Source of the DNA: Olsenella sp. An293
Lineage (GTDB): Bacteria > Actinomycetota > Coriobacteriia > Coriobacteriales > Atopobiaceae
Assembly (NCBI RefSeq): GCF_002159495.1
Contig: NZ_NFIT01000005.1
Coordinates: 124,001 to 188,000, forward strand
DNA: 64,000 nucleotides
Direction of reading: 5' to 3'
Positions 7,758 through 12,186 of this stretch are shown here, piece by piece. Position 1 is the stretch's first letter. Each line of letters begins with the position of its first letter. The notes under the pieces were generated by a model that had not been told where the DNA came from, ran no database searches, and was given only the letters and a program-made list of their open reading frames with translations. The position numbers and the translations under genes are program-made.

Positions 7758-7782
7758 GCGGCCACCGAGCAAAGGAGGTCCA

Positions 7783-10002
7783 ATGAGCTCCGACCCGACG
7801 ACCCGCCGCGTCATCATTGCCTCCTGCGACGCCGACGCCCCGCTCGCTCGGGAGGCCTCAGAGGCCGCGCTGCAGCTCGGGTGCAGCGTCGTTTCCCCCG
7901 ACGACCCCATGCAAGAAGCAGACCTCTGCCTGATACTCATGTCTCAAAACGCGCTCGCCGACAAGGACTTCTTGTCGCGGGCTCGCACGCTCGCGGCAAG
8001 CGCCGCAGCGCTCATCCCCGCACGCATGGATGGCGTTGCCCCGGAGCTCGCCGGCGCCCCGGGAGACCGAATCCGTGAGGTCAACTGGGCGGACTTCTCC
8101 TCGCTCGAAACCGCGGAGGAACGCTCAAAGCGCTGGCGAGCCGTGCTGAGCTCAAACGTTGACCTCTACGACGCCTTCTATGCGCTTGACGCCCGCGCCT
8201 CGTGCTGGGACGACGCCGGACGCGACAAGGGGCACCTCCTCGTAGATCCCGCGCAGGCGCGTGAGGCGCAAGAGCTTCTCCTCTCCATGCGTGACGACCC
8301 GTTCAACGTCCCGGACGCGACCATGGAGGCGTTCGTGGCGGAATCGTCCCGTCACGCGAGACGTCTCCAGCGCAGGCGCTGGTTCCAGTACCTTCGGGTC
8401 GGCGCCGCAGTCGTTGCCGTCGGCGCCGCCATCTATGCCGGCAACGCCCTCATCTCAAGGCAAATCGAGGCAACGAGGTCACTTCTTCAGGAGCTCGCCC
8501 TGAGCGAGAAGGACGACCCGGCGCTCTTCACGCTCAAGGCGCTCTGCAACGCCGACGTCTACGGCGCCCAGACCGACGCCACCGCGCGCGACACCCTCAC
8601 GGGCCTCTCCGAGAACTGGGACGTTGCCCGCCTGGGCTGGGCGGACCTTCAAGAGGGCGGCTGGCAGGGCGAGGCGATCCTGACAAACGACGCCAATACC
8701 TGCCTCGTGCGCGGCGCCGGCGGGACGCTCCAGCGCTGGAACCCGCAAACCGCGGAGCCCCTTTCGACATGGCAGGTCTCCAACGGAGACTCCTTCGTCT
8801 TCGACGCCACCGAAGACGGCGCCGTCGTCGCGGTCGCAGACGGCGATGGCGTTGCGCTCTACGACAAAACGGGCGCCAGGACGGCAACCATCGAGGGCGC
8901 CCCTGCCTCCGTGAGCGCGCTCGCCCTCTCGGAGGACGCCTCGCAGCTGCTTTGCCAGAGCGGGGACGCGATCGCCCTCCTCGAGCTCGACGAGGAGGGC
9001 GGCCCGTCCTTCTCATCACAGTTCGACGAGGTGCTCGCACTGAGGCGAACCGAGCGAGGGCTGCGGGCTCTCGTCGTGGCGGGCGATCGCCTGCAGCTCA
9101 TCGACCCAACCTCCGACTCGAGCGTGCTCGACGCTGCGCTGCCCGAGGCGCAGATGCTCTCCGGGGCCATCGGGCCGCAGGACGCGGTCGTGGTGTGCGC
9201 CGACGGCGCCCTGCTCGTCGGGACGCCCGAAACCGGCCTCGACAACCTCGGCGCCACCACCTATGACCTTCCCCGCGCGCTCGCCCTCGGAGATGAGGTG
9301 CTCGTGGTCGCGACCGAGCAGGCGGGGGTGCAGGTGGTGGACCTGTCCTCGGGCGCCCCGCTCGGAACCATCGCCACGAGCATGGTGGGGACCTGCTATC
9401 TGGACGTGTCGAACGAGCTCGTTGCCAGCGGAAACGGCTGGACGACGACGATCTGCTCGCTCGAGCCCATCACCCCGCGAGACGAGCCTCCCGCCGGAGC
9501 CCACGTCTGCACGGACCTGTCGGACACGAGCGACCTCGTGAGCGTCTCGGTCTCCGCGGGCGGGGACCTCACCGCCACCTGCGAGGAAGGCGCCTGCTCG
9601 CTCGACGCGAGCGGCGTCATGGGCGAGCCGACCTCCTTCTCCGCAGTTGCCGCAGCGGAGGGCTCGTTTGCCGCCGGGACCGAGTCCGGCCAGGTCGTGG
9701 CCTACACCTTCACCTCCGCGGGCACGTTCGTGCAAACGAGGGCCTGGGAGTCGCCCACCGGGGAGCCCATCACGGCGCTCGGCTGGACCGACGACCTGCA
9801 GAGGCTTGTCGTCGAGTCGGGAGGGCGCTGGTGGACCCCCTACTCCAACTCGCTGGCCCTGGGCATCGACGGCATCCGCGATACCGTCAGGGCTCGAGTG
9901 CCCGCCGGGTGGGACGAGGAGACCCTCTCCTTCTATTTCCCCGAGGACTTTGTGGCGTCGATGGGCCTTACGGCCTCGGTCCCGGCACCCCAGGCAAAGT
10001 AG
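7783..10002 (+). CDS. TIR-like / transmembrane / beta-propeller protein, first of a pair (degenerate TIR)
   Basis: 739 residues. Residues about 8-85 (RRVIIASCDADAPLAREA, CSVVSPDDPM, ADLCLILMSQNALADKDF) keep a TIR-like strand-helix order but lack the WRD...AGESW loop and the catalytic Glu of active TIR domains. A helical module follows (ASCWDDAGRDKGHLL, ESSRHARRLQRRR), then one membrane helix at about 204-225. The remaining 510 residues are beta-propeller-like, with many blades of the type VVAVADGDGVALYDKTG. Arg-rich residues before the helix predict an inner N-terminus and an outer propeller. The start at 7783 has AAAGGAGG five bases before it. It is co-transcribed with a paralogue that begins nine bases after its stop. 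The architecture is seen directly; function is unknown. Confidence 0.7.
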   Translation: MSSDPTTRRVIIASCDADAPLAREASEAALQLGCSVVSPDDPMQEADLCLILMSQNALADKDFLSRARTLAASAAALIPARMDGVAPELAGAPGDRIREVNWADFSSLETAEERSKRWRAVLSSNVDLYDAFYALDARASCWDDAGRDKGHLLVDPAQAREAQELLLSMRDDPFNVPDATMEAFVAESSRHARRLQRRRWFQYLRVGAAVVAVGAAIYAGNALISRQIEATRSLLQELALSEKDDPALFTLKALCNADVYGAQTDATARDTLTGLSENWDVARLGWADLQEGGWQGEAILTNDANTCLVRGAGGTLQRWNPQTAEPLSTWQVSNGDSFVFDATEDGAVVAVADGDGVALYDKTGARTATIEGAPASVSALALSEDASQLLCQSGDAIALLELDEEGGPSFSSQFDEVLALRRTERGLRALVVAGDRLQLIDPTSDSSVLDAALPEAQMLSGAIGPQDAVVVCADGALLVGTPETGLDNLGATTYDLPRALALGDEVLVVATEQAGVQVVDLSSGAPLGTIATSMVGTCYLDVSNELVASGNGWTTTICSLEPITPRDEPPAGAHVCTDLSDTSDLVSVSVSAGGDLTATCEEGACSLDASGVMGEPTSFSAVAAAEGSFAAGTESGQVVAYTFTSAGTFVQTRAWESPTGEPITALGWTDDLQRLVVESGGRWWTPYSNSLALGIDGIRDTVRARVPAGWDEETLSFYFPEDFVASMGLTASVPAPQAK

Positions 10003-10011
10003 GAGGCCACC

Positions 10012-12186
10012 ATGGGATACGTCTTCATCTCCTACTCGAGGAAGCAGTCCGCCATCGCGGACAGGCTCGAGGCCGCGCTCTCCTCGCGCTCAGTGGCACG
10101 CGAGCCCGTGAGCGTCTGGCGCGACGTGAACGACCTGCGTGCCGGAGAGTCGTGGGACGCGCGCATCGTCGCCGCAATCCGCGGTGCGAGCCTCGTCGTC
10201 GTGCTGCAGTCAAGCGACTGGCGAGCCTCCCAGCCCTGCCAGAAGGAGCTCGCCCAGGCCCGCCATTACCGCAGGCCCATCCTCGAGCTCGATGCTGCCG
10301 CCCTGTCCCGTGAATCAATGGATGCGGCGAGCCCGGACGGCATCACCCGCGGCGCCGACGATATCGCAGCCCAGCTGAGGCGGCTCGCCGGAAGCTCAGA
10401 GGTGACCGCCAACCTCGAAGTCCGCGCCGCGGCGTGGGCCGAGGGAGGCAGACGGGGCAGGGACCTCATGCGCGGAAGGGCGCTCTCCCGGATGCTCAAG
10501 CTCGCCAGGTCCGCAGACCTCTCGGACTCCGCCCGCCTCTATCTGCGCCAGTCCACGCGCGGACGCAGGCTGCGCCTTCTCATGGGCGCGCTCGCCATCG
10601 TCGCCGTCATCGTGGGCGAGGTGGCGCTTCGCGTCCCTGCCGAGCTGCAGCGACAGCTCGAGGAGCAGGCGGTTGACTCGCTTCGGCTCGCCGACGCCAC
10701 GAGCGAGGTCGCCGCCGTCGTGCGGACCGACCCGAAGCGGGCCCGCGAGCTCGCGCTCTCGGCGGCCGGCGACGGGGACGCTCGCAACTACGCCGCGCTT
10801 CTCGCCTGCCAGCTCGCGCTCACGACGCGCCTGCCCCAGGAGCTCTCGGACAGCGCCGACTTTGCCTTTCCGGACGAGCCCCGCCCCGAAGACGCCGCCG
10901 GCGACATGGCCGCACGCGCCGTTCCCGGCTCGACCCGCATCGGGCTGACCCGTCGAGGGCAGGCCTCGCCGCACGCATACGCCAACCCCGGGTTCATTGC
11001 CGTTGACCTTGCGCTCTCCCCCGATGGGCGCCGACTTGCGGCACTCAGCGAGCAGGGCGTCATCGTCTATGAGACGGATCGGGGTCAGGAGCTCATGGTC
11101 CTCGGCGGCGCAACGCTGCCCATGGGCAGCACGCTCTCTTGGAGCGCAGACGGAACGCGCGTGGCGGCCCATGCGCCCGAAGGGCGGACCTTAGTCTGGG
11201 ACGCCATGCTCGAGACGAGCGTCATCGCAGACACGGACCTGTGGTTCATGGACGTCGCCGAGCTCGGCGACGGGCGCGCGGCGTTTCTCTCGCGCGACGG
11301 GACCGTCGCAGTGATAGATGCCTCGGGCGAGAAGCCCCCGGAGATCGTCGACGTCCTCTCGTCGACCCAGGCGACGAGCATCGCACGGGCCTCGGAGAAC
11401 GCCGTCTACGTGGCGGCCCTCGACGAGAGCGGCGACAGCCGACTCTGGCATCTTGACCTCGGAACGGGCGAGAGCTTCACCATGTCGCTCGAAGACGGCT
11501 ACCAGCCCCTCTACGTTGCCGCCTCCCCAAGCGGCGTCGGCCCCGTCGCAGTCTCGGACGGCTCCACCCTGCTTCTTCTCGATGAGACCTCACTCCAAAG
11601 CCTTGCCACCATAGAGACCGGCGGCATCCTCGCCATCGAGGTCGACGAGGAGGGGCGCACGTTTGCCGGGGCGGGCACCACGCTCATCTGCGTCGAGCCC
11701 GGAGAGACCTCTCCCATCACGCCCCAGGGAGGAGTCGTCCCCGGCGCGCAGGCCCGCTCTCTTGCCGCCACGGGAGACGGGACCGTCCTCGCCGTCGGAT
11801 ACGGCACGCCCCGCGGCGGCGGCTCTCGACTCGTCAGGTACGAGGAGGGCGTGTGGAGGGCCTCTTCGGGCCTCTACCCCTACTCCATCCCGCTTTCAGG
11901 CGCATGCTCGGCGCGCGCCAGCGCCGTCTCCTCGGACGGGAGCCTCTTTGCCGTGGGGCTCTCCGATGGGACGGTCGCGTTTCTCGACGGCGCGGGATAC
12001 TCCTCCTACGCCTCGCACGAGCTCTCCGGCGAGATTCGCGGCATCGTCTTTGCGCCGGACGGCAGGAGCGTCGTCGTGGCGACGCGTGACGGCCTCATCG
12101 CACGCGTCGCCGTCAACGAGGAGGGGCTCTCGCTCCCCTCGCTCCGCGACGCTCTCCAGGCGGGCGTCGGGGGTTCTACCGAGTAG
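10012..12186 (+). CDS. TIR-domain / transmembrane / beta-propeller protein, second of a pair (intact TIR)
   Basis: 724 residues. A canonical bacterial TIR fills residues 1-95: YVFISYSRKQ (box 1), VWRDVNDLRAGESWDARI (BB-loop), then SSDWRASQPCQKELAQA with E79 in the position of the NAD-cleaving Glu. A helical module (AAAWAEGGRRGRDLM ... YLRQSTRGRRLR) matches the same module in the upstream protein. One membrane helix lies at about 187-205, and the rest is a WD40-like propeller (LALSPDGRRLAALS, SWSADGTRVAAHAP, VFAPDGRSVVVATRDG). The predicted layout is a cytosolic enzyme with an outer sensor. The ribosome-binding site overlaps the end of the first gene. TIR-WD40 proteins are known, but the paired catalytic/degenerate arrangement is unfamiliar to me. 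Confidence 0.78.
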   Translation: MGYVFISYSRKQSAIADRLEAALSSRSVAREPVSVWRDVNDLRAGESWDARIVAAIRGASLVVVLQSSDWRASQPCQKELAQARHYRRPILELDAAALSRESMDAASPDGITRGADDIAAQLRRLAGSSEVTANLEVRAAAWAEGGRRGRDLMRGRALSRMLKLARSADLSDSARLYLRQSTRGRRLRLLMGALAIVAVIVGEVALRVPAELQRQLEEQAVDSLRLADATSEVAAVVRTDPKRARELALSAAGDGDARNYAALLACQLALTTRLPQELSDSADFAFPDEPRPEDAAGDMAARAVPGSTRIGLTRRGQASPHAYANPGFIAVDLALSPDGRRLAALSEQGVIVYETDRGQELMVLGGATLPMGSTLSWSADGTRVAAHAPEGRTLVWDAMLETSVIADTDLWFMDVAELGDGRAAFLSRDGTVAVIDASGEKPPEIVDVLSSTQATSIARASENAVYVAALDESGDSRLWHLDLGTGESFTMSLEDGYQPLYVAASPSGVGPVAVSDGSTLLLLDETSLQSLATIETGGILAIEVDEEGRTFAGAGTTLICVEPGETSPITPQGGVVPGAQARSLAATGDGTVLAVGYGTPRGGGSRLVRYEEGVWRASSGLYPYSIPLSGACSARASAVSSDGSLFAVGLSDGTVAFLDGAGYSSYASHELSGEIRGIVFAPDGRSVVVATRDGLIARVAVNEEGLSLPSLRDALQAGVGGSTE

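Follow-up and report, generated by a model that had tools for sequence, protein, structure and literature searches.

Reciprocal loss of TIR elements in a conserved pair of membrane propeller genes: a possible split TIR receptor-enzyme in Olsenella and related bacteria

Two adjacent genes, here termed A and B, encode membrane proteins that have each lost a different part of the TIR domain, the loss of TIR elements being reciprocal between A and B. The genes lie within a stretch of 64,000 nucleotides of Olsenella sp. An293 (NCBI RefSeq assembly GCF_002159495.1, contig NZ_NFIT01000005.1, positions 124,001 to 188,000 of the forward strand), referred to below as the window, and the occurrence of the pair in 14 genomes of an order-wide sample identifies A/B as a real unit, far beyond what chance would produce. 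Judged from the sequences, the pair looks like one BE interface split over two chains to give an end-capped heterodimer. What is new is the pairing with reciprocal loss, since the architecture of B is already present in genomes.

Results

Organization of the gene pair

Gene A (7783..10002) encodes a chain of 739 residues that was classed as a degenerate TIR chain by comparing the N-terminal parts of 14 A chains with single-chain relatives (hhalign), while gene B (10012..12186) encodes a catalytic-type TIR chain of 724 residues recognised through Pfam and homologue searches. The genes lie head to tail on the forward strand, as do all their features given here, with a good ribosome-binding sequence before each, and the nine-base gap reported between the end of A and the start of B is correct. 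The ribosome-binding sequence of A, AAAGGAGGT (7771..7779), was read directly from the sequence; it precedes the start at 7783, from which or just after which the relatives align, and this start is right, a longer frame from 7756 being the choice of the ORF caller only. A scan of the region before the pair found no sigma-70-type promoter.

The two proteins have the order of parts proposed in the initial annotation, namely a TIR-type domain, a helical module, one membrane helix and a beta-propeller. In A the TIR-like domain (7807..8118; joint alignment and AF2 model) lacks the catalytic Glu, the BB-loop motif and most of alphaB and keeps both betaD and betaE, the latter as IREVNWADF at about 8071-8097. 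It is followed by a helical module of the form RAxxW...GRDxxxLL with an Arg-rich segment at its end (8170..8382; E 1.5e-9 by hhalign against single-chain modules), a membrane helix (8389..8454) and a propeller (8650..9999) that has weak Pfam propeller matches and is probably outside the cell from its exported-like composition. In B a TIR domain with the BB loop and alphaB and without alphaD and betaE (10015..10296) precedes a helical module that also ends in an Arg-rich segment (10411..10569; E 5.4e-9 in the corresponding comparison), a membrane helix (10579..10635) and a propeller (10909..12183) with Pfam propeller matches and a similarly exported-like composition, again probably outside the cell. 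Hydropathy and flanking charge defined the membrane helices; each chain contains a single strongly hydrophobic helix around residue 200, the best 19-residue stretch spanning residues 206-224 in A and 190-208 in B.

Single-chain relatives

Proteins with the architecture of B occur as single chains. The set used here contains 12 sequences from 11 loci, ten from Chloroflexi (by record titles or as members of the same phylum) and one from genome G636, of the phylum of the window; loci were read in seven genomes of one set of 14, G484 and G534 of another set being left out, as was locus L167, where two TIR copies and several helices were seen and no propeller. Like B, these TIR-TM-WD40 proteins have a TIR with the Glu, a helical module (RAxEWxxxGRDxSxLLRGxDL...) and a membrane helix. 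The propeller was matched by Pfam in seven and by sequence or the B profile in L169, L170:4215, L171 and L178, and is absent from the short gene of L170. Unlike the pair, they consist of one chain whose TIR is complete to profile position 117-122, and no second TM-propeller chain was noticed beside the gene in ten of the 11 loci, read by eye. B was not found in this stand-alone state with a complete TIR, being paired and without betaE in 14/14 genomes. The paired membrane form had been thought undescribed, a view that holds for the pairing in the literature searched and fails for the architecture, which is that of the single-chain TIR-TM-WD40 proteins in Chloroflexi genomes; among the literature matches listed (titles and starts of abstracts), none described a bacterial TIR-TM-propeller pair or a split TIR.

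One Chloroflexi locus (L170:3045-6992) has two adjacent TIR-module-TM genes, both with the Glu, the first being short and lacking the propeller. Upstream of the Chloroflexi single-chain gene lies a Peptidase_C39-like/SH3 protein in L162, L164, L166 and L172 (first residues), and downstream of it a SLATT_1 membrane protein in L164, with similar-looking proteins in L166 and L172. This neighbourhood, checked with Pfam in L164 only (L164:4218-9966), looks like a multi-gene conflict system.

The TIR domain and catalytic-type Glu of chain B

Pfam TIR_2 matches residues 4-87 of B above the cut-off (E 1.8e-13), beside the propeller matches, and of the PADLOC models TIR-SAVED (E 9.9e-15) and ThsB (E 1.4e-6) match its TIR part, this being the only part covered. 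The description of this TIR as full has to be abandoned, as the Pfam match ends at profile position 78 of 122 and alphaD/betaE are missing. The NAD-site Glu is present in B and lost in A as proposed, in 14/14 B against 0/14 A chains of the joint alignment. In the window it is Glu79 (10246..10248), within CQKELAQA and presumed catalytic; the same column holds E in every one of the 12 single-chain proteins, whereas the 14 A chains have R, R, I, I, A, R, R, C, H, H, H, A, A and F there. It is improbable that the pair is a non-enzymatic receptor whose TIRs only scaffold other proteins, with no cleavage of NAD. The missing alphaD and betaE of B would suit such a role, and NAD degradation is called a less common TIR function in the abstract of PMC7075850; however, the Glu is constant in all 14 B chains despite a mean pairwise identity of only about 23-44% in B segments, and Trp36, Trp48 and Asp38, which surround the BB loop, are likewise invariant.

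Conservation of the pair

Profile searches of an order sample of 395 genomes (E up to 1e-10 for B, with no more than two candidates per genome scored) gave matches to B in 16 genomes and to A in 11. The TIR gene was read in all 16 and is a B-type TIR-TM gene in 14, those of G080 and G134 encoding TIR proteins of other build. In 14/14 genomes A lies directly upstream of B on the same strand, the A-B gap being -4 to 10 bases in 12 pairs, which bears out the expectation of a pair kept together with one TIR devoid of the Glu. By taxonomy labels these genomes belong to five genera and four families. Within the family, the B query matched eight of 140 genomes, five of them at full length, and the A query matched the same five, all in the genus of the window. 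In G127, G326 and G394 it was the position, not the profile, that revealed the A gene. B is 724-748 aa long in 13 of the 14 genomes; that of G326 has 538 aa and no Pfam propeller match.

In two genomes B is open while A is not, an in-frame TGA interrupting A in G085 and a frame change disrupting it in G394; B may have a use alone in these genomes, or they may contain assembly errors or decaying systems. A programmed stop (G085) or frame change (G394) was considered and dropped, there being one case of each. No relatives were found on plasmids by tblastn with B, on the viral contigs searched with the A and B profiles, or in a 196-genome class sample around a Lachnospiraceae genome searched with the B profile at E 1e-15, a search run without a positive control.

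Reciprocal loss of TIR elements

With element names that we assigned on a Chloroflexi chain, the joint alignment shows in all 14 B chains none of the 7 positions of betaE and 1-4 of the 18 positions of alphaD, those of betaA to betaD and of alphaE being all present. Conversely, all 14 A chains have betaC, alphaC, betaD and alphaD complete and retain betaE to differing extents, with all 7 positions in five chains, 5 positions in six and 3 positions in the three chains of G127, G326 and G394. They keep 3-9 of the 14 positions of alphaB, with the exception of G191, where a low-complexity insert accounts for 14 of 14, and at the BB position they have unrelated residues rather than a clean gap, with a long insert in G191. 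Independently of the joint alignment, Pfam agrees with this element table: on the TIR_2 profile of 122 positions, the matches of five scanned B chains end at 78, 76, 77, 98 and 90, and those of seven scanned single-chain relatives extend to 117-122. Between betaD and alphaE the B chain of the window carries some twelve additional residues, which are unlike the NW motif and were unmatched by the aligner but might include a diverged strand.

In SARM1 some of the residues on the partner side are located near betaE. The active site of known TIR NADases is found between one BB loop and the betaD/betaE/alphaE face of the next subunit (PMC11364022, in excerpt), and the composite active site of SpbK is likewise at the BE interface, a BB-loop mutant being defective (PMC12847820, in excerpt). 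Both sides of this interface were not encountered in one chain of the pair, B being without alphaD/betaE and A without the Glu and the BB-loop motif. Because A keeps the betaE side that B has lost, it may complete the active site instead of being simply an inactive copy. The initial proposal of a heteromer of an active and an inactive chain thus stands in that one chain is of catalytic type and the other is not, and falls where A is taken as simply inactive.

A different reading, in our view rather unlikely, is that A is a regulatory pseudo-TIR that holds B inactive and upon sensing releases it, whereupon the B TIRs self-associate. The absence of the Glu from A in 14/14 genomes is compatible with such a role, for which the paired plant TIRs RRS1/RPS4, with a hetero-complex postulated to be inactive (PMC11364022, in excerpt), provide a precedent. 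However, B lacks betaE, which belongs to the face that receives the neighbour in the usual head-to-tail contact, so that B-B assembly would be impaired; the receiving face is kept by A, and the loss of A with B open in two genomes would free an enzyme.

Identity of the N-terminal domain of chain A

Pfam found no TIR match in A of the window even at E up to 1 (its propeller matches are weak), and none in the four A chains scanned. The N-terminal parts of the 14 A chains nevertheless align with those of the single-chain TIR-TM-WD40 proteins by hhalign at E 6.1e-12 over 181 columns, compared with E 6.7e-28 for B. Taken by parts, the TIR region of A alone matches the single-chain TIR parts at E 2.4e-5 and its module alone at the value given above, against E 0.11-0.46 for reversed or mismatched controls, each of these part-wise E-values being a single comparison. 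Whole-chain profiles of A and B match each other at E 3.5e-17 over 650 columns, and their N-terminal parts including the module at E 9.6e-6; the TIR parts alone give no clear match (E 0.18 in one comparison and 0.013 in another), so that it is by way of the single-chain proteins, and by position, that A is identified as a TIR. From these sequence comparisons we conclude that A is a degenerate TIR chain.

Searched by sequence against the PDB, the N-terminal domain of A has as its best match a Rossmann 2x3 fold protein (E 0.0065), and there is no TIR among its nine matches (up to E 10). An AF2 model of A 1-241 from the single sequence (pLDDT 45) was too poor to judge the fold. A model of A 1-129 with pLDDT 81.5 was obtained from an alignment of A and B of the window with ten TIRs from related loci; by title, the 50 matches listed for it by VIA-align are all TIR domains or TIR-carrying proteins (Z up to 13.0), and its one Foldseek match at E 0.001 or better is a plant TIR (4c6t), below which flavodoxin, sugar-isomerase-like and response-regulator entries are mixed in. 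The model is consistent with a TIR but, its alignment being TIR-rich, is not independent evidence.

Topology and the membrane segments

Positive residues had been noted before each helix, and the count of Lys+Arg within 20 residues confirms this, being higher on the N-terminal side in 26 of 28 helices with two ties and no reversal, many of the chains being close relatives. A linear composition classifier was trained with parts of proteins from the window and from 17 other stretches of the same genome, crude rules having assigned 157 of these parts to the cytosolic and 27 to the exported class. The classifier has a cross-validated AUC of 0.85, misplacing 8 of the 157 cytosolic and 7 of the 27 exported parts. 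It finds 26 of 27 C-terminal parts of the A/B chains exported-like and 27 of 28 N-terminal parts cytosolic-like, the C-terminal part of A in G394 being too short to be classified and A in G085 truncated. Lys+Arg content is 0.041-0.082 in the A/B C-terminal parts and 0.046-0.106 in other membrane-type chains; a lone propeller ahead of any predicted helix, used as a control, has 0.102, near the top of the membrane-type range. The composition test is weak alone because the make-up of propellers may add to the score.

A single membrane crossing places the TIR and propeller ends on opposite sides. The layout with TIR in and propeller out, as proposed from the start, agrees with charge bias and composition, neither of which indicates propellers in the cytosol, and an outward position of the propellers is supported by these predictions. 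WD40 propellers are often cytosolic, and two charge ties together with one cytosolic-looking WD40 at Lys+Arg 0.102, inside the membrane-type range, could be read in favour of both propellers being cytosolic, the helix being a mere anchor or buried and the sensing internal; with the ends separated by a single crossing, and with charges and composition favouring the TIR inside, we regard this as very unlikely. In Chloroflexi, STAND-WD40-type proteins (L173, L175, L176 and L177), some with a kinase-like start and that of L173 with a TIR, have a strongly hydrophobic helix ahead of their WD40 region, and outward propellers may therefore be common in proteins of this type.

Comparison of G095 and G096, which are different but close species (L033:8355-12821 versus L034:8470-12936), shows 94-99% identity of A and B in the TIR-like, A-helical and propeller parts but 54% (A) and 45% (B) in the membrane and juxtamembrane tract, and 67% in the B helical part. 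DNA identity falls to 49-63% there, the segment limits having been set after the dip was seen. G085, more distant overall, has the G096-type tract in both A and B (70% and 77%, versus 49% and 47% with G095). Weaker dips occur nearby in G193/G196 (lowest local identity 65% in each), where A dips in the propeller too, and the close pairs G190/G192 and G196/G197 show none. As the replacement is parallel in both genes, it points to a need for the membrane segments of A and B to match, although with one clear case this is a hint only.

Insertion and evolution

In the window the pair sits as a clean insertion, inserted as a unit, between ecfT (CbiQ-family) and purL. Among 30 ecfT loci of the genus, purL is the next gene in 28, the remaining two being the window itself and a contig end; the ecfT-purL distance is within about 0.5 kb in 27 of the 28 and 1.3 kb in one (G085). 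The region upstream of purL is intact behind B, and no repeats were found within either edge of the insertion. The pair is present in only 5 of 31 genomes of the genus, the chains of the window share 34-38% identity with those of the four genus relatives, and the purL parts compared are 77-93% identical in 27 of 28, one of these having a second piece at 98%. Insertion, patchiness and low identity are the pattern of horizontally gained conflict genes. A housekeeping envelope sensor unconnected with defence is unlikely: the neighbours in the window are indeed ordinary genes, but the patchy presence, the empty site in relatives, the divergence of the chains relative to purL, and the neighbours of the other pairs, which differ from those of the window when read by eye, all argue against it.

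In a joint tree of 23 rows, A and B fall on opposite sides of a branch with 100/100 support, and separate 12-row trees of A and of B have compatible branching apart from unresolved forks, the rows of the window being long branches (all trees without G085 and G394, the joint tree also without B of G326). Since each forms one clade and their trees are compatible, the duplication looks old and A and B appear to have travelled together.

Near the G085 pair (L035:11983-17238) a large TPR gene is present together with one encoding DUF4062-DUF3825, the only instance in which a possible defence gene was noticed beside a pair, the other neighbourhoods having been read by eye; DUF4062 is reported as a TIR-like antiphage NADase (PMC13174449, in excerpt). 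The genome of the window encodes a second TIR protein (contig C30, L031:2492-5308), of 938 aa with a TIR and a NACHT/STAND-type NTPase (Pfam NPHP3_N and NACHT), the TIR match of which extends to profile position 109.

Discussion

The chances that A and B are two chains of one membrane receptor-enzyme with the half-site mechanism described here seem to us about even; the heterodimer, its activity, its ligand and its role are what we infer. In each chain the N-terminal TIR-type domain would be cytosolic, with the helical module and a single membrane helix connecting it to an outward propeller. B would supply the BB loop and the catalytic Glu and A the betaD/betaE/alphaE face, so that an NAD-cleaving site would form only when the BB side of B docks on the betaE side of A. 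With no BB loop in A and no betaE in B this contact could not be repeated, which would give a capped heterodimer rather than an open-ended filament. A signal outside the cell, for example a phage, a damaged envelope or a product of a neighbour, would be bound by, or would change, the two propellers and move the helices, and this movement would bring the half-sites together and lead to loss of NAD or to an ADP-ribose-type signal, most likely in defence. We tentatively propose, at somewhat less than even likelihood, a split TIR enzyme: an end-capped heterodimer with one composite active site, controlled by two outward propellers.

According to PMC11364022, every active assembly of TIRs is a head-to-tail strand with open ends, which makes the minimal number of TIRs needed for activity a difficult question to address. 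If the proposal is true, a pair with one contact side per chain makes the minimal enzymatic unit directly testable, and the pair would be a receptor of a bacterial membrane that has a TIR as its output and probably senses outside the cell.

Membership of two known bacterial systems was considered and rejected. For Thoeris, the flanking genes scanned are ECF transporter genes and purL, with no ThsA-type gene directly beside the pair, and the scores are 25.7 bits for ThcB4 against a cut-off of 220 and 12 bits for Pfam ThsB_TIR against 21.2. For TIR-STAND, Pfam gave no NTPase match in A or B. TIR-SAVED and ThsB share the TIR part with B, but here Pfam shows no match to a SAVED domain and the chains are membrane propeller proteins. 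The comparison with a Toll receptor that had been drawn is apt for an inner TIR in a membrane receptor, as a likeness of working, and not for the order of the chain, the TIR being N-terminal here: Toll-like receptors have the opposite chain order and LRR (PMC7075850, in excerpt), whereas A and B have propellers and B a catalytic-type Glu.

The plant receptors RPS4 and RRS1 are NLRs and cytosolic. Like A and B, they comprise two TIR chains that act as a pair (PMC11364022, in excerpt). SpbK (PMC12847820, in excerpt), SPARTA and DUF4062 (PMC13174449, in excerpt) sense phage or plasmids inside the cell, through portals or DNA. SARM1, AbTir and SpbK resemble B in having a TIR with a catalytic Glu and an active site at the BE interface (PMC11364022 and PMC12847820, both in excerpt), but differ from A and B, which have a membrane helix and a propeller; their head-to-tail assemblies consist of identical TIRs, whereas in the pair described here the two sides of the contact are found on different chains.
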